From an uncultured Clostridium sp. (GTDB lineage: Bacteria; Bacillota; Clostridia; Lachnospirales; Lachnospiraceae): DNA of 64,000 nt. How positions within the stretch are numbered: the stretch's first letter is position 1; every line of letters begins with the position of its first letter. Under the pieces are notes generated by a model that saw only the letters and a list, made by a program, of their open reading frames with translations, did no database searches and had not been told where the DNA came from. The stretch lies in assembly GCA_945915475.1 (NCBI GenBank), contig CAMEFI010000005.1, forward strand, positions 62,001 to 126,000, given 5' to 3'. The position numbers and the translations under genes were made by a program. Of this stretch, positions 30,810-58,218 are shown piece after piece.

Positions 30810-30815
30810 GTAGAA

Positions 30816-30854
30816 AGTGTCAGGTGGCCATATGTGCTGTCTGGCACTTTTTTG
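30816..30854 (+). terminator. terminator closing the CPBP protease transcript
   Basis: AGTGTCAG (30816-30823) pairs with CTGGCACT (30841-30848) with one G-T pair, then six T. It marks the border between backbone and the first cargo block. Confidence 0.8.
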
Positions 30855-30888: not shown

Positions 30889-30940
30889 TTGACAATATAT
30901 GCAATATATTGTTATAATATATGCAATATAATAACAATAT
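30889..30940 (+). promoter_or_regulatory. promoter with overlapping operator for the GHKL-ATPase operon
   Basis: TTGACA at 30889-30894, an 18-base spacer and TATAAT at 30913-30918. ATATATGCAATATA occurs twice, and ATATTGTTAT (30906-30915) is the inverted partner of ATAACAATAT (30931-30940), overlapping the -10. GGAGG of the first gene follows at once. A dimeric repressor bound here would block transcription. Confidence 0.65.
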
Positions 30941-30951
30941 GGAGGTTTTGT

Positions 30952-31176
30952 ATGGCATCAGAAAAGGAAAAAGCAGAGAGATTTAAGAGAGTTGCAGAAG
31001 GAAGAACCAATAAGATTATTGATCAAATTAGATTATTGGGGAATTGTGCAAATAGGTCGAATTATGAGTATTCAGATGAAGATATAAAGAAAATTTTTTC
31101 AGCAATAGAGAATGAATTGAAGGTAACAAAGGCGAAGTACCAATCAAAGGCACAGAACAAAAAGTTTGAATTATAA
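30952..31176 (+). CDS. small first gene of the GHKL-ATPase operon
   Basis: 74 aa from ATG 30952, with GGAGG 7 bases upstream. A basic helical protein: KEKAERFKRVAEGRTNKII, then RSNYEYSDEDIKKIFSAIEN. It is compact enough to be a DNA-binding autoregulator of the inverted-repeat operator just upstream, but no HTH or RHH is clear. It is 22 bases before the ATPase gene. Function not recognised. Confidence 0.6.
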   Translation: MASEKEKAERFKRVAEGRTNKIIDQIRLLGNCANRSNYEYSDEDIKKIFSAIENELKVTKAKYQSKAQNKKFEL

Positions 31177-31198
31177 TTAGGAAAAGGGGTTTTTACTT

Positions 31199-33103
31199 AT
31201 GGATAAATGGTTTTTCCCTACTAGGGGACATGCAGAAACAGAAGGCTTTTCAAATGCTGGTTTGGCAGAATTTAAGGGTAATCCTTTGCAGGCATTAGCT
31301 AGAGAGGTTTGTCAGAATTCTTTGGATGCAGCAGATGGTTCAGGAAGACCAGTACGTGTAGAATTTCATAAAGAGTTTGTTGAAATAAATAGTTTCCCGG
31401 GAATGGAAGATATGAGATCAGTTATTGAAAAATGTAATAAATTTTGGGGAACGGATGGAGATGCGAACACTAAAAGTTTTTTAACAAAAGCTCGAAGAGC
31501 ACTTGAAGGAAATAAATTTTTTGTGTTAAGAGTGAGTGATTACAATACCAAAGGAGTGCAAGGTGCTTTTTCAGATAAAAATATAACTCCATGGGGAGGT
31601 TTGGTAAAAGGAAATTCATTTTCTGTAAAGACAGATGAAAAGAATGCACAAGGTAGCTTTGGTATAGGAAAGGCAGCTCCATTTGTTTCATCTGCTATAC
31701 AAACCATTTTCTATAGAACCTACGACATGGAAAATGTAAGAGCTACATTGGGTGTGGCAAGATTGATGGCTCATGAGATACCTATTAGTGAGTGTATGTC
31801 AGGAGAAGATCCTGTTAGGCGTTCAGTGGGGTATTATGGTGAGAATGAGGAAAAAAAACCCTCTGTTTCGATTGAAGCATTAGATAATATTTATGAACGT
31901 ACAGAATATGGGACTGATTTATTTATTCCTGCTTTTGCATATTCAACAGCTGATGATGAATGGATTAGAAAGATAATGATTGAGATTGTGGATAGTTTTC
32001 TGTATTCAATCTATTCAGGTAAATTAGAGGTTGTTGTGGAAGATAGAAAACTAACAAAGGCGACGCTTCCTTCTATGCTTCAGTTTTTAGGTGCTAAGGC
32101 AAAGAATGCGATGATGTTTTATGATGTGATTAGAGAAGACAATAGTGAGGTTATAGAAGAAACAAGACAGTATTATGAATTAGGTCAATTAAGGTTAAGA
32201 TTATTATACAAACCTGATATGAATAAAAAAGTTTTAGTTGTTCGTAATTCGGGTATGAAGATTGCAACTATTCCTAATTTACCAAAGGGTATGTCTTATG
32301 TGGGATTTTTTGAATTGCAAGGGGACAAGTTGAATGAAATATTTAGAGGGATGGAGAATCCCAAACATAATGCATGGGAACCCAAAAGACACGATAATCC
32401 TTCATTTGCAAAAAAGCATAAAGAGGAAGTAGAGGATTGGGTAAGAGACATTATTATAAAAAAACTAATTGAAAAGAGTGGTGAAGAAGCATTGTTGGAT
32501 GTGGGTGATTGTTTCAATTATAAAGAACAAGACAATCGACCAGATAAAGATGATGCGACCAAGGAAACAATTGTAGATACTGTGCAAGATATTATTATTG
32601 ATCAGATGAGAAAAACTCCATCAAAAACATTTAAATTAAGAGACCAAGGTGGAGATAGAGGGACAGGGACTGGAGAAATGTTACCAGGTACAGTTGAACC
32701 AGATGGAAATAAAAGAGGTCATCGCCATAGAACAGGTTCAAGGAAGGGTTTAAAACCAACCGGACGAGCAGGAAAGGAAAATCCGATAGGTGTAGATAAA
32801 GTATATCCAGGAACACATGAGGTAGATGTATCTGCGCGTATTATATCAAGAGGAGAAGGTGTGAGCAGATTGATATTTAACACCTTTGAAGATATATCAC
32901 TTGGTGAAATGGAAATTGTTACCAAAGGTGAAAATGGAAAAGCCCTACAATTGTTTGTTCAAGAAGTTAATGGTAGGGATGTTTCTGTGAAAAATGGTCA
33001 TATAGTAATCAGTAATGTTAAGGCAAACGAAAAGCATACGGTAGAATTTAAGATTGCAGGTAATAAAAAATACGCTATGGGGGTAAGAGCATATGGAAAT
33101 TAG
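31199..33103 (+). CDS. GHKL (Hsp90/MutL-like) ATPase of a predicted defence operon
   Basis: 634 aa. The ATP-binding N-box AREVCQNSLDAAD is at ~34-46, a DxG-like motif LRVSDYNTKGVQG at ~110-122, and the glycine-rich lid QGSFGIGKAAPF at ~151-162, in MutL/Hsp90 order. A middle domain, a basic Gly/Arg/Lys-rich linker (~490-530) and an Ig-like beta domain (~540-634) follow. GHKL ATPases act as ATP-driven dimer clamps. The frame overlaps the next gene by 11 bases. The operon lies in a cargo block full of defence genes, which is the only functional hint. AT-rich relative to the backbone. Confidence 0.75.
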   Translation: MDKWFFPTRGHAETEGFSNAGLAEFKGNPLQALAREVCQNSLDAADGSGRPVRVEFHKEFVEINSFPGMEDMRSVIEKCNKFWGTDGDANTKSFLTKARRALEGNKFFVLRVSDYNTKGVQGAFSDKNITPWGGLVKGNSFSVKTDEKNAQGSFGIGKAAPFVSSAIQTIFYRTYDMENVRATLGVARLMAHEIPISECMSGEDPVRRSVGYYGENEEKKPSVSIEALDNIYERTEYGTDLFIPAFAYSTADDEWIRKIMIEIVDSFLYSIYSGKLEVVVEDRKLTKATLPSMLQFLGAKAKNAMMFYDVIREDNSEVIEETRQYYELGQLRLRLLYKPDMNKKVLVVRNSGMKIATIPNLPKGMSYVGFFELQGDKLNEIFRGMENPKHNAWEPKRHDNPSFAKKHKEEVEDWVRDIIIKKLIEKSGEEALLDVGDCFNYKEQDNRPDKDDATKETIVDTVQDIIIDQMRKTPSKTFKLRDQGGDRGTGTGEMLPGTVEPDGNKRGHRHRTGSRKGLKPTGRAGKENPIGVDKVYPGTHEVDVSARIISRGEGVSRLIFNTFEDISLGEMEIVTKGENGKALQLFVQEVNGRDVSVKNGHIVISNVKANEKHTVEFKIAGNKKYAMGVRAYGN

Positions 33104-33953
33104 AAATCGTTTATTTCCTTATCCTGTATTGTGCGATGAGACAGATGATTATATTGAGGGATTTTTTGATGTTGAAATGATTTCGATGGAATCAATGAAT
33201 AATCTTGAATTGACATTTGAATTTAAATTGGAAAATGATGATTTAGAAAATCTAATTCGAAAGGGGCAAGCGAAATACGTCATACATTTAGAGTGTAGAT
33301 ACACGTCATACCGAAAAGTAATCAAAACCGATTTGAAAGAGATACAATGTAGCATTCCTAAATCAAGAGTAAATAAAGAAATAAATATTGTAGCAATGAT
33401 TGTCGCTACTACAGAAATAGAAGGATATTACAGCTCTCTTCTTAATGAGGACTATTTGGGAGAGGAGATAAATTTCGAACATGCAGCGATTTTAGCATAT
33501 GAGAATATGCCCAAGATTCTTATTTCTAAGAACTATGAAGAATTGGCGGGTAATGAGTCGTTGTTTAGTATAATTCGAGTTGAATATCCAGATCCAGATG
33601 AAGAGCATCCGTTAGATATTGTTTTAAATGATGATAGGATTAAGATTCGAGTTGATGCCAATACGTATGATTCGTATATTAAATTTCAACAATCCTCGGC
33701 GATTGCGATGTCTATGTTTGTTTTACCAGCATTGCTTTTTATGATTGACGCAGTCAGAGAAGATGAAAGTTGTAGTGCATATGAAAGTAAAAACTGGTAT
33801 ATGAAAATGAAACAATATTATAAATCACAAGGAAGAGACTTGGAGAACGAATTAATTGGAGAAGCGAGAAAAAATGCACTTGAATTGGCTCAAGAAATGC
33901 TGAAGAATCCAATAGGAAAAGCTTATAAAGAACTTATGGAAATGGAGGGTTAA
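33093..33953 (+). CDS. unrecognised second component of the GHKL-ATPase operon
   Basis: 286 aa. The N-terminal ~200 residues look beta-rich (LELTFEFKLEN, YVIHLECRYTSYRK, KINIVAMIVATTEI-type strands). The C-terminal ~80 are helical, with a hydrophobic helix SSAIAMSMFVLPALLFMI and a Glu/Lys helix at the end. No signal peptide; the hydrophobic helix could be buried. Start overlaps the ATPase gene and the stop is 2 bases before the next ATG, so the three are made together. No family recognised. Confidence 0.65.
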   Translation: MEIRNRLFPYPVLCDETDDYIEGFFDVEMISMESMNNLELTFEFKLENDDLENLIRKGQAKYVIHLECRYTSYRKVIKTDLKEIQCSIPKSRVNKEINIVAMIVATTEIEGYYSSLLNEDYLGEEINFEHAAILAYENMPKILISKNYEELAGNESLFSIIRVEYPDPDEEHPLDIVLNDDRIKIRVDANTYDSYIKFQQSSAIAMSMFVLPALLFMIDAVREDESCSAYESKNWYMKMKQYYKSQGRDLENELIGEARKNALELAQEMLKNPIGKAYKELMEMEG

Positions 33954-33955
33954 CA

Positions 33956-35086
33956 ATGAAGTTATATTTTATGAAACAGAAAGTTATTGATGATTTGAAA
34001 GAAAATATGCTTACCCTTCATACCAATTATTATAAGTTTAATACTAATGATTGGATAATGGAAAGATATGAATACGATCCTTTTGAGTTTTTTATGGAAG
34101 TGCCAGATTTCGAACTTTCTATGTTAGATAGTAGAAATATAGGTGAAATAGAACTTGAAAATTGTAAAATATTGTATGAACATTTAAAGAGAATTAGCGA
34201 GTCTCAGGCATCTGACGAACGATTGTGGGCAGGATTGTGTAATGGAGTATTCTATCAATATGTAAGAGAACGTTGGAAATATCCAACAATGAGGCAAAAG
34301 AAACCTGAGTTGGATGCGTCAACGGTAGTTTCGAGATTTTTCTTTTCAGGTGGTGGTCGTGCTGGTATATTCAGAAATACTCTAGCAAAATGTTGGTGGG
34401 CAGGACAGTCAACATATGATAGTATGAACCCAAAACATTGGGAAATGTTAGATTCGATTGGTCCAGAAGATTTTGCTACAAAGGTAAGTGATATTTTGTA
34501 TAGTAATACATTTGCTGCAAATACAGATATTATGAAAGGGATATGTAAAGGATTAAGTTTTTATAGAAAGCAAGGTATTAGTTTGTCTGTGAAAGATCAT
34601 ATAAGACCTACAATGCAATATTTGAATGCATTAGGTGGGTCTATATTACTTGATATGTACACTGAAGATGAAATAGCAAAGGAGGTTATAAATTCTATTG
34701 AACGTGCTCGTACAGGAAAAGAGTCGGCTTTTGTTGTAGAGGAAATGCAGGAAGAACTAGAAGATAATATAATAGATGATGAATCAGATGCTACACAGAT
34801 GGATGAAATAAATATTGACTACCAAGAATATGAAGAATCTCAATATGTTGATGTTGAACCCCTTGATGCACAATCTATTTTGGGTTCTCCTGACAAGGTT
34901 ATTTATGGTTGCAAAGTTATTGTTAAGGAGCTTGTATCAGGGAGATATATGGAACCAGTTATTCCGAAGGAAGAAGGGGTTGGAACATTGTATCCATTAC
35001 CTGAAAAGTTGCTGGGGCATTCTATAGGGGATGTTGTGGCTCATATGGGAAAAAAGTATGAAGTAAAAAAAATAGAATGGGAATAG
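33956..35086 (+). CDS. DUF6339-like protein with GreA/B-like C-terminal domain
   Basis: 376 aa. The first ~250 residues resemble DUF6339: LWAGLCNGVFYQYVRERW (~85-102), then FFSGGGRAGIFRNTLAKCWW. An acidic linker (~260-305) leads to a ~70-residue end that resembles the FKBP-like C-terminal domain of GreA/GreB: VIYGCKVIVKEL, then LYPLPEKLLGHSIGDVVA and KYEVKKIEW. That domain in Gre factors binds RNA polymerase near the secondary channel. I infer that this protein may touch RNA polymerase or mimic that fold. The family calls are from memory. Confidence 0.65.
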   Translation: MKLYFMKQKVIDDLKENMLTLHTNYYKFNTNDWIMERYEYDPFEFFMEVPDFELSMLDSRNIGEIELENCKILYEHLKRISESQASDERLWAGLCNGVFYQYVRERWKYPTMRQKKPELDASTVVSRFFFSGGGRAGIFRNTLAKCWWAGQSTYDSMNPKHWEMLDSIGPEDFATKVSDILYSNTFAANTDIMKGICKGLSFYRKQGISLSVKDHIRPTMQYLNALGGSILLDMYTEDEIAKEVINSIERARTGKESAFVVEEMQEELEDNIIDDESDATQMDEINIDYQEYEESQYVDVEPLDAQSILGSPDKVIYGCKVIVKELVSGRYMEPVIPKEEGVGTLYPLPEKLLGHSIGDVVAHMGKKYEVKKIEWE

Positions 35087-35406: not shown

Positions 35407-35456
35407 GGAAAAAATGTAATGATTTCCTGCGAATTAAAAGATTAGGGGTGAAATTT

Positions 35457-36404
35457 ATGGGGAATATTTGGCAGAACGGAATGTATGGACTAATCGTTGG
35501 GGATGCGCTTGGAGTACCCGTAGAATTTACTTCAAGACAGGAGAGGAAAGTTGATCCTGTGACAGGCATGCGAGAATATGGAACGCATGAACAACCAAAG
35601 GGAACCTGGTCAGATGACAGTAGTATGGCAATTGCTACAATGGATAGCATAAAGACACTTGGGGAAATCGATTACAAAGATATCATGGAGCGATTTTCTG
35701 AATGGTGCTTGTATGGAGATTATACACCGTTTGGCGAGGTTTTTGATATGGGGATTTCTACCTCAAGGGCTATTATGAATTATGGAAAAGGTGTGAAACC
35801 AACGGAATGCGGGGGGCTTACGGAATGGGACAATGGAAATGGTTCTCTGATGAGAATATTGCCGGTTTGTCTGTATTTATATGAGAGGCAGAAACGGATT
35901 AGTACCTCAGAGAATGAAAGCATATATGCAATTCATTGTGCATCGGCATTGACACATGCACATTTGCGAAGTCAACTGGCCTGTGGAATGTACTATTTTA
36001 TGGTGAAGGCAATTTTGGAAAGTGATGATGTACTTATCCGCCGTCTGCAACTTGGAATGGACAATGCTTGGAATTATTATCGTCAGGATAGGCAGAATTA
36101 TGCGGAAATGGAAAAATATGTCAGATTGACCGACGTGCAGGAGTTTCGGAATACGCCGGAGACAGAGATCAAAAGTAGTGGCTATGTTGTGGATACGTTA
36201 GAGGCGGCTGTTTGGTCCCTCATCAATTCGCAGTCTTACAGTGAGGCAGTGCTGAAGGCGGTAAATCTTGGTTCTGATACCGATACCATTGCTGCAGTGA
36301 CGGGAGGACTTGCCGGCTTGTATTATGGAATGGAGGCAATTCCTGAAGAGTGGGTTGCATCAATTCAGCGAAAGAAATGGATTGATGGTATAATTGTGAA
36401 GTAG
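35457..36404 (+). CDS. ADP-ribosylglycohydrolase (DraG-like)
   Basis: About 315 aa from ATG 35457, preceded by AGGGGTG. Metal and substrate motifs of the family are all present: GLIVGDALGVPVEF near the start, TWSDDSSMAIAT, DNGNGSLMRILP and NLGSDTDTIAAVTGGLAGLYYG near the end. Members remove ADP-ribose from proteins or small molecules with Mg2+. In a defence island it could reverse ADP-ribosylation by a phage or toxin; no ADP-ribosyltransferase gene is visible nearby. Confidence 0.88.
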   Translation: MGNIWQNGMYGLIVGDALGVPVEFTSRQERKVDPVTGMREYGTHEQPKGTWSDDSSMAIATMDSIKTLGEIDYKDIMERFSEWCLYGDYTPFGEVFDMGISTSRAIMNYGKGVKPTECGGLTEWDNGNGSLMRILPVCLYLYERQKRISTSENESIYAIHCASALTHAHLRSQLACGMYYFMVKAILESDDVLIRRLQLGMDNAWNYYRQDRQNYAEMEKYVRLTDVQEFRNTPETEIKSSGYVVDTLEAAVWSLINSQSYSEAVLKAVNLGSDTDTIAAVTGGLAGLYYGMEAIPEEWVASIQRKKWIDGIIVK

Positions 36405-50884: not shown

Positions 50885-51001
50885 TTAATACATGTTTGAG
50901 ATGTTATTTACTATTATAGATATGTATCAGACGAGAATGTTAGCATACGAAAATGTGAATGTAAAATAAGGTGATTCTTAATAAGTTTGAGAGGTGTAGG
51001 T

Positions 51002-53074
51002 ATGAACGGACAGGCAAAGCCATTGGTAAAATTTTTGGATGGTTCAGATACAAGATTCATCATTCCGGTATATCAGAGAAATTATGATTGGAAAATTGAA
51101 AATTGTAGACAGCTTTATGACGATTTGAAAAAAGTTATTGAAAATGAAAGAGAGTCTCATTTCTTTGGAAGTGTGGTTTCAGTGGCAAATACCAAAGGAG
51201 CGTCCAGTGAAATGCTCATTATTGATGGTCAGCAACGAATTACAACGATTTCTTTGCTCTTTTTGGCGGTGGTAAATCTCCTCAAAGAAGGAAAAATCAC
51301 ATCGGAAAAGCCGAATTTATGTGAGAAGATTGAAAATACATATTTGTTAGATCCGTATCAGCCAGAAGAAAAGAAAGTGAAATTGAAACCTATTAAGGAT
51401 GACCAGGATGCATTTTTGAAACTTTTTGATACCGATGAAGAATACAATCATGCATCGAATGTAACGCAAAATTACCTTTATTTTTATAACCGTATTTTAG
51501 ATGGAGAATTGACAGCAGATGAATTATTTACGGCAGTCTGCTCGCTTGTAATAATTGACATTTCTCTGGATCCACAAAAGGATGATGCCCAGTTAATCTT
51601 TGAAAGCCTTAATTCTACAGGTCTTGATTTGAGTGAGGGAGATAAAATCAGAAATTTTGTCCTGATGGGAAAAGAGCCGGATAAACAGGAGCAGTTTTAT
51701 AACAAATATTGGAATAAAATTGAGAAGGATACAGGCTATGAGGTAAGTGACTTCGTACGTTATTATTTGACAGTGGTTTTGTCAAAAACACCAACAATAA
51801 AAGAAATCTATTCTGTGTTTAAGGAATATGTTGAAAAAAATAAAATTGAAACAGAAGTATTGTTACAGGATATGTTGAAATATGCTCGTTATTATAAACA
51901 AATTAGAAATGCTGTGACTGGAAATGCAAAAGTAGATTTAATTATGAAACGTTTGAATGTACTTGACATGAGTGTATCGATTCCATATTTGATGGCTGTA
52001 ATGGATTATAAAGAAAAATACTCGATGAGCGAGGATGAATTTGCAAAGATTTTAATCACTTTGGAGACTTACATATTTAGACGTTTGATATGTGGAGTAC
52101 CGACTAATGCTTTAAATAAAATATTTTCAATGTTACATAGAGATTGCTTGAAATATAAGAAAGATGATGTCGCATATGTAGATGTTTTGATTTACTTGTT
52201 AGTTAGCAAAGCTGGTTCCGGACGTTTGCCAAAAGATAGTGAATTTCTGATTGGTTTGGAAGAGAAAAATATATATTCTATGCAATCAAAAAATAAAATG
52301 TACTTGTTTGATCGCTTTGAAAATGGGGATTCTGTTGAACACACTAATGTAGTTGAATTGATGGAAGACGGTACATATACCATTGAACATGTAATGCCAC
52401 AAACACTTTCGGTTTCATGGAAAGAAGCACTGGGTGCAAATTATCAGGAAGTATATGATAAATGGATAAACCGATTAGCCAATCTAACATTAACAGGTTA
52501 CAATTCGCAGTATAGTAATAGAGCATTTATTGATAAGAAAAATGCTGAAAAGGGATTTAAAGACAGTCACCTTCATATTAATTCTATGATTGCTGAATGC
52601 AATGAATGGACAGAAAAAGAATTGATAAAAAGAAACAATCTGTTAAAGGAAAAAGCATTGAAGTTATGGGCGTATCCTGAAACGAATTTTGAACCTGCTG
52701 TCGCAATAAATGAAAAGCATTATTTAGATGACGATTTTGATTTTACCGGTCGTAAAATTGCGTCATATACTTTTCTGGATACACCATACTCTGCTGACAG
52801 TTGGTCTGAAATGTACCAGCAGGTAGTTCGATTTTTGTTTGAACTAGACTCAACGATTATTTATAAGCTTGTTAAAGAAGAGACGGGCTTGGGGTATCAT
52901 TTTTCTGAAAAGGAATCAAGTGGTTTTGTAGAAATCGCACCAAAAGTATATCTCTATGTAGCAAGTTCAACACGCTCGAAGATAGGCAATTTGAGAAGAT
53001 TATTTGAATTGTATCAACTTGACGGTTCTGAATTGGGACTTGAGATACAAAATAATACTGAAAACGATGATTGA
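51002..53074 (+). CDS. GmrSD-type restriction protein (DUF262 plus DUF1524 HNH)
   Basis: 690 aa from ATG 51002 with GAGAGGTG upstream; an in-frame TTG at 50987 is less likely. The DUF262/GmrS part has IPVYQRNYDW (~22) and IIDGQQRITTISLLFL (~77). The DUF1524/GmrD HNH nuclease has TIEHVMPQTLS, then NRLANLTLTGYNS and NRAFIDKK (~465-520). A C-terminal ~130-residue DUF5655-like domain follows. GmrSD enzymes cleave glucosylated-hydroxymethyl or otherwise modified phage DNA. All key motifs are intact; separate from the upstream operon by 117 bases. Confidence 0.88.
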   Translation: MNGQAKPLVKFLDGSDTRFIIPVYQRNYDWKIENCRQLYDDLKKVIENERESHFFGSVVSVANTKGASSEMLIIDGQQRITTISLLFLAVVNLLKEGKITSEKPNLCEKIENTYLLDPYQPEEKKVKLKPIKDDQDAFLKLFDTDEEYNHASNVTQNYLYFYNRILDGELTADELFTAVCSLVIIDISLDPQKDDAQLIFESLNSTGLDLSEGDKIRNFVLMGKEPDKQEQFYNKYWNKIEKDTGYEVSDFVRYYLTVVLSKTPTIKEIYSVFKEYVEKNKIETEVLLQDMLKYARYYKQIRNAVTGNAKVDLIMKRLNVLDMSVSIPYLMAVMDYKEKYSMSEDEFAKILITLETYIFRRLICGVPTNALNKIFSMLHRDCLKYKKDDVAYVDVLIYLLVSKAGSGRLPKDSEFLIGLEEKNIYSMQSKNKMYLFDRFENGDSVEHTNVVELMEDGTYTIEHVMPQTLSVSWKEALGANYQEVYDKWINRLANLTLTGYNSQYSNRAFIDKKNAEKGFKDSHLHINSMIAECNEWTEKELIKRNNLLKEKALKLWAYPETNFEPAVAINEKHYLDDDFDFTGRKIASYTFLDTPYSADSWSEMYQQVVRFLFELDSTIIYKLVKEETGLGYHFSEKESSGFVEIAPKVYLYVASSTRSKIGNLRRLFELYQLDGSELGLEIQNNTENDD

Positions 53075-53207
53075 TAAAGTTAAGGGGATGTGTTGATGCA
53101 CGAAGCAGAAGTAAAATTAAGAATTGCTAATTGCGAGGCATTTTTATAGGACAGAAAGTGTTATATTATTAAATAACAAATAATATGATATGAATTGGGG
53201 TGAATTT

Positions 53208-55076
53208 ATGAAGTCGCAAAAGAGAATGAATAGTTATACGTATTTCTTGTTGGCTATGATGTTGTCTTTTAGTGTTTGTGTACTCTTTTATAATGTGGAG
53301 GCACATGCGAAGGAAAAGACAAACACTGTTGCAGGAATGGAATACGAATTTAACAAGAAGAATGATTTTGAAATATCATCAGCTAATAAGTCTAATAAAA
53401 TCAATTCGGGAACCCAATATGGTACATTCTCTATTTGTGGAAATGTAAAAGCTATTTCAAGTGTAAATGGTTATCCCTCATATCAAATATCACAAGATAA
53501 TGTTGATTTTTCATACAATTTATGCGAGGAAATAAAGAAGGCAAAAGCGACAGAATGGCATATTGATGAGTGTAAGTCGAAGAAAGTTGATAAGTTGAAA
53601 CTTGAGGATGATATTAAGTCGGGGGCAGTTATTATTCAGACCTCGTTGGATGGAGAGAAATGGATTACGGATGAAATTTACACAGATATTAATTCCAAAG
53701 GGTTTAAAAGTGATTTTTATGAGACTAACAACATTCAGCAAGTAAATGGTTGTTATTATCGAATAACAGTTGTGTATCAGTTGGAGAAACAGGAAAAGGA
53801 TACAAAGATAGCATTTGTAAAAAAACATAATTATTCTTATAAGAGATGTGCAGAGGTGTATCAGTTTTATTTGATTAACGAGAATGTTTCACAATTTGTT
53901 TCTGATTTATCAAATAAGTACAATATAGGTACAACAATAAAAGTTAAAAAGGATTCCGGATATTCTGAAAAGTCAAAAGAAGAAATTGATATTAAGGATG
54001 TGCATTATGGCTGGGATTTGGGTTCATTTTATTTGAGTGGATATACTGAGAAACAGGGAAAGGATGATAATCCAGTTTTTCTCAAAAAGTATGGTGATAT
54101 TGTTACACTATGGTTTAATCTGAAACAGGATATTAACAAGTTGAATGGTAACAATAAATTGTCAATTTGCGAAGATAAAGATGGATATGATCAGTATTTT
54201 GGTACAAAGAAAACGAACTTTAAGCATGGAACACTGATTATTAAATATACAAACTGTGAGAACGAGAAAAAGGATCCAATTATATATACAGATTATTTAG
54301 CTGCCTGTGCGACAACAGGAGCAGATACCAAAGTTGAGTTGTTTGAAGAAGGTGATTATGAGGTTGCCCTTGATTATAAAATTAAGAATGATGGTTTAAC
54401 TAATTCTTATTCGGATTATAGGATATCATTCAAGTTTTCTATTCGTAACGGAAACTGTATGTTTTTTCCATTCGATATGGGTACAGGTTCAGAATTGAAA
54501 GACGGAGCTTTGACAGAATCGGGATTTAGATTGGATTTGGCTAAGTCAAGATTTCTGAATATGAATGTAAAGCAATTTGAGATAGTAGATAACAATGGCG
54601 TTTATTGTGAGGATGTTAGAAGTAATGCTGTTGCGTCTGATGGAGATACGTTTGTTAAAGAAGGAAAATATATAATAACCGCATCTAGTGAATATTCATC
54701 CATTCCAACTGAAAAAACAATATATGTCGGAGAGAGTGCAATTATTAAAGCAATGGCATCGTCAGGTTATACGTTAGAGAAAATAAACGAATTATTGGCT
54801 AATGGATATGTTTTGAATGATGATGGCTCATTAGAAAAAGATGAAATTGAAGTGGAAGTTACTACAGAGGAAACCAAGGAAGAAGTAAAAGAAGAAATTA
54901 CTACTGAAACAACAGAGAACGAAATTGTCCCTGTAAGTACGGAACCAGTTTGCATAGAAGATGATAAAAATAATGAGTCTGGTAATGTAATTCCTATTAT
55001 ATTATTGGTAGTTTTTCTTGTCGTAGTAGGTGTTGTAGCATTTGTTGTTTATTCTAAAAAGAAGAAGGGTGAGTGA
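53208..55076 (+). CDS. large cell-surface protein, membrane-anchored
   Basis: About 622 aa from ATG 53208, with GGGGTG upstream. A signal peptide (SYTYFLLAMMLSFSVCVLFY) is followed by an extracellular beta-rich body with no recognised domain. A Thr/Glu-rich stalk (~545-590), one membrane helix (IPIILLVVFLVVVGVVAFVV) and KKKKGE complete the topology. The stop precedes the LHH lipoprotein by 5 bases. It may present or export the neighbouring nuclease toxin; no sequence evidence beyond linkage. The gap 53075-53207 holds only a doubtful 17-codon frame at 53096. Confidence 0.65.
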   Translation: MKSQKRMNSYTYFLLAMMLSFSVCVLFYNVEAHAKEKTNTVAGMEYEFNKKNDFEISSANKSNKINSGTQYGTFSICGNVKAISSVNGYPSYQISQDNVDFSYNLCEEIKKAKATEWHIDECKSKKVDKLKLEDDIKSGAVIIQTSLDGEKWITDEIYTDINSKGFKSDFYETNNIQQVNGCYYRITVVYQLEKQEKDTKIAFVKKHNYSYKRCAEVYQFYLINENVSQFVSDLSNKYNIGTTIKVKKDSGYSEKSKEEIDIKDVHYGWDLGSFYLSGYTEKQGKDDNPVFLKKYGDIVTLWFNLKQDINKLNGNNKLSICEDKDGYDQYFGTKKTNFKHGTLIIKYTNCENEKKDPIIYTDYLAACATTGADTKVELFEEGDYEVALDYKIKNDGLTNSYSDYRISFKFSIRNGNCMFFPFDMGTGSELKDGALTESGFRLDLAKSRFLNMNVKQFEIVDNNGVYCEDVRSNAVASDGDTFVKEGKYIITASSEYSSIPTEKTIYVGESAIIKAMASSGYTLEKINELLANGYVLNDDGSLEKDEIEVEVTTEETKEEVKEEITTETTENEIVPVSTEPVCIEDDKNNESGNVIPIILLVVFLVVVGVVAFVVYSKKKKGE

Positions 55077-55081
55077 TTTTG

Positions 55082-56326
55082 ATGAAAAAATTTATTTCAT
55101 TAATTTTGGCACTTTCATTGGTTTTAGTAGGTTGTGGAAAGCAAATTCCAGAACAGACTGAAAAAGAGGCAACAACTGTTGAGAATACCGAAGAGATAGT
55201 TACAACCGAAATGGTTACACAACAAGAAGAATTGGATGAGGAAACAGATGATTCGCCATATGAATATGAAGTGAAATTTGACAAACTAGATGATCCTGAA
55301 TTGATGGGATACATGGAGGATTCATTATATTATGAATTGGTTCAGTCACTAAATAGCGAAGAATATTATGTTCAAGATGTAAGTACTACATATATCTCAC
55401 AAGAGTATATTGATGAGCTTGCATATAATTCACGATCCAATATATTTTTTGGGCATACTTTAGAAGAATTAGATTCACAATTTGAAGGTAAAAGGTATGT
55501 ATTTACTTTAGGCGATGATAACCGGACAACAGTGGAAGAGTTTGAAGAATATGATGATACCTATGAAAAGGCAATAAAAAAAGTCGCTATTGGAACTGGT
55601 GTTATTTTGGTGTGCGTAACTGTATCGTGCGTGTCTGGCGGAGCAGGAGCACCTGCTGTTAGTATGATTTTTGCAACTGCAGCAAAATCTGGCACAGTAA
55701 TGGCATTGTCGTCTGGGGGACTGGGTGGCGTGGCATCCGGTATTGTTACTGGTGTTCAAACAGGTGATATGGACCAAGCAATTAAGGCGGCAGCAAGTGC
55801 TGGTGCAGATGGGTTTATGTGGGGAGCAATTGGTGGTTCTGTTGCCGGTGGTGTAACAGAAACTTTAGCACTAAAAGGTGCGACTTTGAATGGCTTAACA
55901 ATGAATGAAGCAGCTGCTATTCAAAAAGAATCAAAATACCCGTTGGATGTTATTTCGGAGTTCCATAATACGCAAGAATACCAGGCGTTCAAAGATGCTG
56001 GCTTGACAAATAAAATGGTAAATGGTAAATCTGCTTTGATTCGTTCTGATATTGATTTGAAACAAACTGATGAATTTGGAATTACCAATTTAGAAAGAAT
56101 GAAAAATGGTTATGCTCCATTAGATAGTAATGGTATGACATTTGAACTTCATCATGTAGGACAGAATCCGGATGGTACGTTGGCAATACTTACACAAGCA
56201 GAACACGATAATACTGCGTTACATGGTTATAAGTTGACATCGGAAATAAATAGAAATGCTTTCAAGAAGCAACGAAAACAATTTTGGGAAACAATGGCAA
56301 AGATATTAGAAGCAGGAGAGTTGTGA
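55082..56326 (+). CDS. lipoprotein polymorphic toxin with LHH nuclease domain
   Basis: About 414 aa from ATG 55082. The lipobox LVGC follows MKKFISLILALSLVLVG. A Glu/Thr linker and a ~120-residue domain precede a Gly/Ala-rich membrane-active region (~165-260), as in pretoxin parts of polymorphic toxins. The end matches LHH nucleases: YAPLDSNGMTFELHHVGQN, then LTQAEHDNTALHG. These are HNH/EndoVII-like DNases delivered to rival cells. The next gene is a SUKH immunity protein, 1 base away, which supports the toxin reading. Confidence 0.82.
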   Translation: MKKFISLILALSLVLVGCGKQIPEQTEKEATTVENTEEIVTTEMVTQQEELDEETDDSPYEYEVKFDKLDDPELMGYMEDSLYYELVQSLNSEEYYVQDVSTTYISQEYIDELAYNSRSNIFFGHTLEELDSQFEGKRYVFTLGDDNRTTVEEFEEYDDTYEKAIKKVAIGTGVILVCVTVSCVSGGAGAPAVSMIFATAAKSGTVMALSSGGLGGVASGIVTGVQTGDMDQAIKAAASAGADGFMWGAIGGSVAGGVTETLALKGATLNGLTMNEAAAIQKESKYPLDVISEFHNTQEYQAFKDAGLTNKMVNGKSALIRSDIDLKQTDEFGITNLERMKNGYAPLDSNGMTFELHHVGQNPDGTLAILTQAEHDNTALHGYKLTSEINRNAFKKQRKQFWETMAKILEAGEL

Positions 56327-56823: not shown

Positions 56824-58218
56824 ATGGTTGTTATGAATATAAAAGACATAATTGGTGAGGCAACAGAATATGATAAAAAACTTGCATTAGAAGAAAAGAA
56901 ACCAAAGAGCTGGTGCAAAAGTGTTAGTGCATTTGCAAATTCATTTGGTGGTGCTTTGATTTTTGGAATATCAAATGATGGAGAGATTGTTGGGTTGGTA
57001 GATCCGGAAGGAGATGCTGAAAAGATAAGTGAGACGATAAAAACAAGATTGGATCCAATTCCGGAATTTAATCTAAAATTTCATAAAACGGATGACGGAA
57101 AAGTTCTGGTTGTTCTTGATATTTATAAAGGTGATGAAACACCGTATTATTATTCGGGGGATGGAGTGTTAGAAGCCTTTGTTCGTGTCGGAAATGAAAG
57201 TGTGAAAGCGACTGCAACAGAGTTAAAACGGCTTGTGTTAAGAGGAAAAAATACGTCGTATGATTCACAAAATTCTACTTATAAAGCAGATGATTATGCT
57301 TTTTCAAAACTGAAAGAAAGATATAATAAGTGGACAGGAAGCAGTTTTGATGAGAAAAATTTGATTTCTTTTGGACTTGTAAATACAAAAGGAGAACTGA
57401 CAAATGCTGGAGCTTTGATTGCGGATGAAAGTCCAATTCGCTGTTCAAGACTATTCTGCACTAGATGGAATGGTTTGGATAAAAGTGGTGGTGCTATTGA
57501 TGCTCTAGATGATGCAGAGTATTCCGGCAGTGTGATTTCTTTGATTGAAAATGGAGAGGCGTTTATTAAGAGAAACTGTAAAATGCAATGGCGAAAGACC
57601 GCTAATTCGAGAGAAGAAATGCCTGAATATGTTGAACGAAGTTATCACGAAGCCCTTGTAAATGCATTAGCTCACCGGGATTATCTTGTAAATGGAAGTG
57701 AGGTCCATATTGATATATATGATGACCGGATGGAAATTTATTCTCCGGGAGGAATGCCGGATGGTTCTCTGATTCAGGATAGAGATCCGCTTACAGTACC
57801 TTCAACGAGAAGAAATCCCGTTTTGGCGGATGTGTTTAATCATTTGGGATATATGGAGCGTAAAGGTAGTGGATTTGGGAAAATCATAAGCGGATATCAA
57901 ATTCAGATTAATTACAATGAAGATAAAAAACCTACTTTTCGCTCTGATAGATATCAATTTACGGTGATTATGCCAAACTTGAATTATGGTGTCACTCAAG
58001 ATGTCACCCAAGATGTCACCCAAGATGTCACCCAAGACAGTTTGAACAATCAAATAATTGAACTGATACGTAAGGATGATTCAATAAGTACTGACAGTAT
58101 GGCAACAATATTGGGAGTTAGTACAAGAACAATTAAACGCCATATAAAGGAAATGGATAATGTAAATTATGTCGGTAGTGGGTTTAGTGGACATTGGGAA
58201 ATCACGGATAATAAGTAA
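56824..58218 (+). CDS. AlbA_2/HATPase_c_4-type putative regulator
   Basis: 464 aa. An AlbA_2 domain (~1-120) contains SVSAFANSFGGALIFGISNDG; a HATPase_c_4-type C-terminal region has HEALVNALAHRDYLVNGSEV and IYSPGGMPDGS. A linker of four VTQD units (~390-405) leads to a winged-helix end (STDSMATILGVSTRTIKRHI). Such proteins are putative nucleic-acid-binding regulators of unknown target. ATG 56824 is used; 56833 is possible. Present between two copies of the 25-bp palindrome. Confidence 0.78.
   Translation: MVVMNIKDIIGEATEYDKKLALEEKKPKSWCKSVSAFANSFGGALIFGISNDGEIVGLVDPEGDAEKISETIKTRLDPIPEFNLKFHKTDDGKVLVVLDIYKGDETPYYYSGDGVLEAFVRVGNESVKATATELKRLVLRGKNTSYDSQNSTYKADDYAFSKLKERYNKWTGSSFDEKNLISFGLVNTKGELTNAGALIADESPIRCSRLFCTRWNGLDKSGGAIDALDDAEYSGSVISLIENGEAFIKRNCKMQWRKTANSREEMPEYVERSYHEALVNALAHRDYLVNGSEVHIDIYDDRMEIYSPGGMPDGSLIQDRDPLTVPSTRRNPVLADVFNHLGYMERKGSGFGKIISGYQIQINYNEDKKPTFRSDRYQFTVIMPNLNYGVTQDVTQDVTQDVTQDSLNNQIIELIRKDDSISTDSMATILGVSTRTIKRHIKEMDNVNYVGSGFSGHWEITDNK
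57991..58038 (+). repeat. four 12-bp tandem repeats in the AlbA/ATPase gene
   Basis: GTCACYCAAGAY occurs four times in frame and codes VTQDVTQDVTQDVTQD. Near-identity of three units points to recent slippage. Length changes would alter the linker between ATPase and HTH without shifting frame. Confidence 0.85.

Follow-up and report, generated by a model that had tools for sequence, protein, structure and literature searches.

Eukaryotic MORC-like ATPases act in DNA silencing or condensation. For C. elegans MORC-1, entrapment and condensation of DNA have been described (PMC8277788), and it has been argued that topoisomerases and MutL use their GHKL modules to rearrange complexes and loop DNA, a view that was extended to the paraMORCs (PMC2292703). 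In this 2008 work, Iyer, Abhiman, and Aravind placed paraMORCs in restriction-modification (R-M) systems and operons, and gave as the paraMORC2 signature an ExxxH motif that follows the ATPase domain and lies in the C-terminal portion of S5; the term "small protein" has 0 occurrences in the text of that article, figures excluded. MORC proteins proper have a GhXhhpXXRhl motif in S5. Other described GHKL loci are Shedu (paraMORC3; VcSduA), where the ATPase lies within a tested anti-phage protein, and the HEF_HK/Response_reg_2 loci, where a GHKL gene is linked to C5 methylases and Vsr (PMC8011034). The PDCs, in turn, are candidates from a "guilt-by-embedding" approach, and experimental validation is lacking for most of them (PMC12988326).

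Here, we analyzed an operon of four genes (S, A, B, and C) within a 64,000-nucleotide stretch of an uncultured Clostridium sp. genome (contig CAMEFI010000005.1, positions 62,001 to 126,000; the window). Like paraMORC2 ATPases, protein A combines GHKL motifs with ExxxH after the ATPase domain, the S5 identity of this stretch being assumed, and relatives of the operon have C5 methylase and Vsr neighbors; unlike the paraMORC2 loci as described (PMC2292703), the window's genome has no detected C5 methylase. Shedu differs by its fused PD-(D/E)xK DUF4263 nuclease, for which A has no Pfam match, and neither domain of the HEF_HK/Response_reg_2 loci was matched by Pfam in the operon's proteins. The preliminary description took the set for a possibly undescribed system that it could not match to a named one. 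This view, and with it the notion of an unnamed system, was rejected, because PADLOC-DB 2.0.0 models identify A as PDC-M33A (E 3.7e-160), B as PDC-M33B (8.8e-80), and C as PDC-M33C (1.3e-102), nearly over full protein length. All three PDC-M33 components are thus matched, in the gene order of the relatives; the window operon differs in adding S, which matched none of the PDC-M33 models. A search for literature on "PDC-M33" or "DUF6339" retrieved none, with supplements, bioRxiv, and most subscription journals outside its scope; other PDC-M names occur in at least 10 papers. As far as could be found, PDC-M33 is a candidate label rather than a tested system, and tests may exist elsewhere. The operon exemplifies well a candidate that is already catalogued and whose ATPase is of a known kind, and the under-described part of the set is the small protein S. 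What lifts the locus above the ordinary is the S family, with its links to many operons of the GHKL type and its occurrence in phages.

Layout and gene products of the operon

Reading of the open reading frames between 30952 and 35086 gave four intact genes in the same orientation, with the following features in and ahead of the operon:

30812..30852, + strand: terminator-like hairpin, 3' of a CAAX-protease-like gene and immediately 5' of the operon
30889..30918, + strand: sigma-70 type promoter, TTGACA - 18 bp - TATAAT (12/12 hexamer matches)
30894..30930, + strand: possible operator that overlaps the promoter; a directly repeated 15-mer, aatatatgcaatata (copies at 30894 and 30916)
30952..31176, + strand: S, 74 aa, probably helical in our reading, with an FxL-type tail at the C-terminus; S family
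31199..33103, + strand: A, GHKL-type ATPase, PDC-M33A, paraMORC2-type (ExxxH = E386/H390)
33093..33953, + strand: B, PDC-M33B
33956..35086, + strand: C, PDC-M33C/DUF6339, with a C-terminal extension

The genes are separated by 22 bp (S-A), -11 bp (A-B), and +2 bp (B-C), and the expectation of four tightly packed genes behind one promoter was borne out, the hexamers and their spacing being perfect. S had been assigned a start at 30889; the TTG at this position opens the -35 box, and the gene most likely starts at ATG 30952, judging by the GGAGG ahead of it. When the upstream 150 bp were shuffled by mononucleotide, a repeat as long as aatatatgcaatata arose in 0/50 trials, and the 14-base core of aatatatgcaatata is unique within the window. 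The operon has a G+C content of 0.345 against 0.378 for the window, and was rightly described as AT-rich like other cargo (Qat block, 0.358; type IIG R-M block, 0.346).

MutL/Hsp90-type GHKL boxes had been reported in A. The motifs themselves stood: among 48 aligned M33A sequences, E36, Q39, D43, D114, T117, G119, G152, G155, and G157 are present in all and N40 in 47, and R349, E386, and H390 occur in 47/48, with a gap in the remaining sequence (a truncated one in the case of E386/H390). Pfam yielded no HATPase match in A up to E = 1. Because Pfam recognizes no GHKL domain in A, the assignment rests on the motifs and the ExxxH signature, with which A fits a GHKL ATPase of the paraMORC2 type. 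When the PDB was searched by profile, nothing convincing was returned for A or S, and no relative for B. For C, none was convincing either, the best matches being designed proteins (E 0.002) and a repeat toxin (0.015).

The DUF6339 likeness of C was confirmed by Pfam (E 2.7e-49), whereas the Gre-like end attributed to it was rejected, as no Pfam Gre match was obtained up to E = 1. This part corresponds to the C-terminal extension, which aligns in 2/15 homologues (those of the window and L013) and has a shorter version in L016. B, which the preliminary description could match to no family, is the PDC-M33B protein. Neither B nor C matched a toxin family in Pfam, PADLOC, or NCBIfam, and a recognizable nuclease was found in none of the four proteins; a hidden one in B, C, or the C-terminal part of A is possible.

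Near the operon, a PADLOC scan of 10 window proteins identified QatABCD and also an R-M system of split type IIG, the latter about 11 kb away and the only R-M system seen there. In the cargo block proposed in the preliminary description, the Qat and restriction genes were thus found, and GmrSD was not confirmed: 53190-55076 and 55073-56326 have no PADLOC match at 1e-5, and 50987-53074 lay outside the scan. A defence-type neighborhood, also proposed there, is present in the window and in most relatives. Immediately 3' of the operon lies an ADP-ribosylglycohydrolase gene (35451-36404). Farther downstream, the 464-aa product of 56824-58218 has PADLOC matches of the pAgo type (best E 2e-15) but is far shorter than the profile.

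Linkage of A-B-C and partners of the S family

M33B was found in 8/398 genomes of the window's phylum, its own included. A, B, and C are adjacent and in the same order in all seven non-self loci of this sample, two of which have S upstream. Plasmid records with B numbered 21, and the seven that were opened all carry A-B-C, five of them with S (L026, L027, and L030-L032). Overall, the three genes are adjacent in 14/14 non-self loci chosen by B, which bears out the conserved linkage expected of them. S was not detected by blastp in seven of these (L010-L013, L015, L028, and L029); it seems that S is not strictly required for A-B-C or is too diverged there for detection. Selection by S added 33 A loci, in which HMM searches found B in 22 and C in 23. 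Elsewhere in this sample, the B position is taken by another gene of roughly B size (L051 and L080) or A is followed by another pair, c4/c5 (six loci), two loci end at a contig edge, and one is truncated. The c4/c5 pair follows M33A in L052, L060, L075, L077, L078, and L084; c5 is related to M33C (hhalign 95.7) and c4 is not clearly related to M33B. Together with the window, the 14 B-chosen and 33 S-chosen loci make up the M33 set (n = 48); L039, a repeat of L016, was excluded from M33 counts and from the methylase search, and L085, L086, L100, and L117 are near-duplicate rows.

For S itself, Pfam, PADLOC, and NCBIfam returned nothing convincing, and its best PHROG was a weak one (phrog_35258, E 8e-5). 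We scanned genomes with five S seeds (three from T2, one from T5, and one from M33 loci) and kept the best 80 of 172 relatives, a sample in which the family shares are biased by the seeds. A GHKL-type gene follows S in 75 of these 80 loci: M33A in 34, T2 (about 620 aa) in 26, T4 (about 810 aa) in 6, T3 (about 770 aa) in 5, T5 in 2, and single types in L111 and L115. It is directly adjacent in 72/75, with one gene between in L050, L098, and L115; L069 has a truncated ATPase. Four of the five remaining loci (L055, L061, L067, and L096) are from Acholeplasmatales or near kin and have S among other genes, and the fifth (L072) lies at a contig end, with a C5 methylase and Vsr upstream. Similarly, 13 plasmid records contain S, and a GHKL-type gene follows it in 8 of the 10 opened (L020, L021, L022, L025-L027, L030, and L031; not in L023 and L024).

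Genomes drawn by taxon gave a comparable picture. With centers included, HMM searches detected S in 6/398 genomes of the window's phylum, 21/385 of the class of a Jannaschia locus, and 7/369 of the class of a Pseudomonas locus. When only strong hits were counted (E no higher than 1e-10, centers excluded), a GHKL-type gene directly follows S in 14/18, 4/6, and 3/3 assessable cases (one more being cut at a contig edge), i.e., 21/27, several hits coming from a single genome (G702). By eye, in one of the six others (L134) a single gene separates S from a GHKL gene, and L145 shares L134's neighbor; L133, L135, L153, and L155 show no GHKL gene, and L155 has a C5-methyltransferase-like gene upstream.

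The ATPases that follow S fall into several groups. Profile comparison with hhalign linked M33A to T3 (96.7) and T4 to L111 (97.9), and T5 to L115 weakly (36); the other pairs tried had no support. T2, T4, and L115 were called GHKL by motif plus a Pfam HATPase_c_3 match below the cut-off, which L111 reaches. T3, T5, and the T4 member L114 have no Pfam HATPase match; the T3 call derives from its profile link to M33A and the T5 call from the motif alone. That one S family precedes several barely related GHKL-type ATPases is new here.

T2 is a two-gene unit of S and a GHKL-type ATPase (615-621 aa; full range, 608-630) that accounts for 26/80 S loci, e.g., L020:8986-11092, L021:9001-11109, and L068:9929-12090. 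Its plasmid copies in L020, L021, and L025 had no PADLOC match, and we regard the unit as an uncatalogued candidate. In L021 it is followed by genes annotated as an ATP-binding protein and a UvrD helicase, which in L020 come one gene later. The gene between S and A in L050 (10223-12514) and L098 encodes 737-763 aa; its L050 copy matches RNA_pol_A_CTD (two stretches) and Sigma70_r4.

C5 methyltransferases beside PDC-M33 loci

Profiles for the methylase and Vsr were built from annotated neighbors at five and four M33 loci, respectively. A C5 methyltransferase was detected in the fetched flanks of 34/48 M33 loci, the flanks being of unequal length and several contigs ending early, so that some of the 14/48 methylase-less loci are short stretches. 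It lies at most 1 kb from the module in 22/48, and 29/43 loci retain it when the five profile sources are left out. Vsr occurs in 23/48, each time alongside the methyltransferase. The other groups differ widely (T2, 0/29; T3, 5/5; T4, 3/6; T5, 0/3; remainder, 1/7, namely L072); the difference between M33 and T2 has a Fisher p of 6e-11, which is not a clean probability, as the loci are related. Within M33, the methylase accompanies 27/33 S-chosen and 7/15 B-chosen loci, window included. Among the latter, it is present in 6/8 loci with S versus 1/7 without S (two-sided Fisher p 0.04).

PF00145, a profile matched in 10/14 control genomes, had no match in the genome of the window (completeness, 97.9%). 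Because no C5 methyltransferase was found there, 5mC is probably not obligatory for the operon; an obligatory 5mC partner was rejected on this ground, albeit not beyond doubt, and the window operon apparently acts without a C5 methyltransferase in its own genome. PADLOC was also run on 10 chosen neighbors from nine M33 loci without the methyltransferase, and six proteins of five loci matched: Helicase_II and PDC-M26A (L010), an SNF2-type helicase (L048), PDC-S41 (L053), BovA (L066), and a type IV mREase (L109). The neighbors scanned at L013, L014, L015, and L058 had no PADLOC match. An association with helicases (6/48 M33 versus 0/29 T2 loci) was set aside as circular, five of the six matches being the probes' own loci.

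Predicted mechanism, alternatives, and phage copies of S

On the basis of sequence, the operon is a candidate anti-phage system, the antiviral role of its members being predicted. By analogy with the described GHKL and MORC ATPases, we give an even chance to a PDC-M33 operon that works as an ATP-gated DNA clamp. In such a device, A would dimerize on ATP via its N-terminal GHKL domain and clamp invading DNA by closing around or along it. S would serve as an adaptor through which the ATPase meets DNA or some other shared target, perhaps via the FxL tail, a role suggested by its being shared among several ATPase families. B and C would be sensing or effector subunits, a step reached by exclusion and the weakest of the scheme. 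As no nuclease was found in the four proteins, the operon is less likely to cut DNA itself than to entrap or silence it, or to assist a neighboring R-M enzyme.

Alternatively, S-A-B-C could be the restriction arm of a C5-methyltransferase R-M system, attacking DNA that lacks 5mC while the adjacent methyltransferase protects self. The flanking counts, the preference for loci with S among those chosen by B, and the 2008 assignment of paraMORCs to R-M systems (PMC2292703) favor this arrangement, but self would hardly be protected that way in the window's genome, and the operon has no recognizable nuclease; we consider it unlikely, at perhaps half the weight of the clamp. The lean of M33 loci toward C5 methyltransferases is left unexplained by a plug-in or guard module, i.e., an abortive-infection device beside R-M that fires when a phage blocks the latter, its toxic component being B or C. 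Such a module would suit the "guilt-by-embedding" origin of the PDC candidates (PMC12988326) and the PADLOC-matching neighbors at 5/9 scanned loci without the methyltransferase; neither B nor C matches a toxin family, however, and we hold this explanation to be distinctly improbable.

The last alternative concerns S only, which might not be a subunit of the machine at all and might instead regulate its own transcription or resemble an antitoxin. It is the first gene, and the 15-mer repeat overlaps the window's promoter. Yet a direct repeat that at most 4% of simple shuffles equal was found in only 19/80 upstream regions, window included, and the repeats are of unrelated sequence; an autoregulator with a conserved operator was rejected on this weak support. 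S is also found in gene clusters of phages that include no GHKL gene, and of the alternatives this one appears to us the least probable.

An FxL-type tail ends 84/86 S proteins of ATPase operons. It is also present in 3/4 Acholeplasmatales-type and 1/2 other copies that have no ATPase, so that its link with ATPases is not an exclusive one. Viral contigs yielded 17 S relatives, including five that belong to ATPase or methylase cargo (L156-L160; M33A cargo among them), one without an S reading frame (L164), and 11 with no GHKL match in the neighborhood examined; a search of viral contigs with the single protein A returned no relative. In 4 of these 11 contigs (L161, L162, L166, and L169) PHROGs assigned neighbors to terminase, portal, head, or recombination functions, and in L170 one neighbor matches only PHROG families of unknown function. 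Three viral-contig S copies that were scanned fell in no PHROGs family. Ten phage records contain S, nine of them from Synechococcus phages, and B was found in none of 50,697 phage records (tblastn). The three cyanophage records opened have S among small unnamed genes, and these homologues lack the FxL tail:

L173:2992-3270: S homologue of S-CRES1
L174:2992-3261: S homologue of S-H34
L175:2995-3246: S homologue of S-CRES3

Altogether, 2/14 phage copies have the tail (2/11 on contigs and 0/3 in cyanophages). Because these 14 copies fall, by eye, in about seven lineages, the apparent contrast with the operon copies is only suggestive. We tentatively propose, with clearly less confidence than for the clamp, that S, a small and well conserved family, acts as adaptor throughout a whole class of immune systems with GHKL ATPases, their shared target lying in the partner of S (be it DNA, a protein of the host, or a product of the phage) and not in the ATPases, and that tail-less phage S proteins, cyanophage ones included, would be counter-defence decoys acting on the shared site. 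If so, a small shared partner would offer one handle on several systems and predict a shared target, and phage S genes may block the whole class. The window, with a paraMORC2-type operon in a genome without a detected C5 methyltransferase, makes 5mC dependence directly testable. S-like stretches also occur inside longer frames of 215-233 aa in 1.4-Mb genomes (L139-L142).
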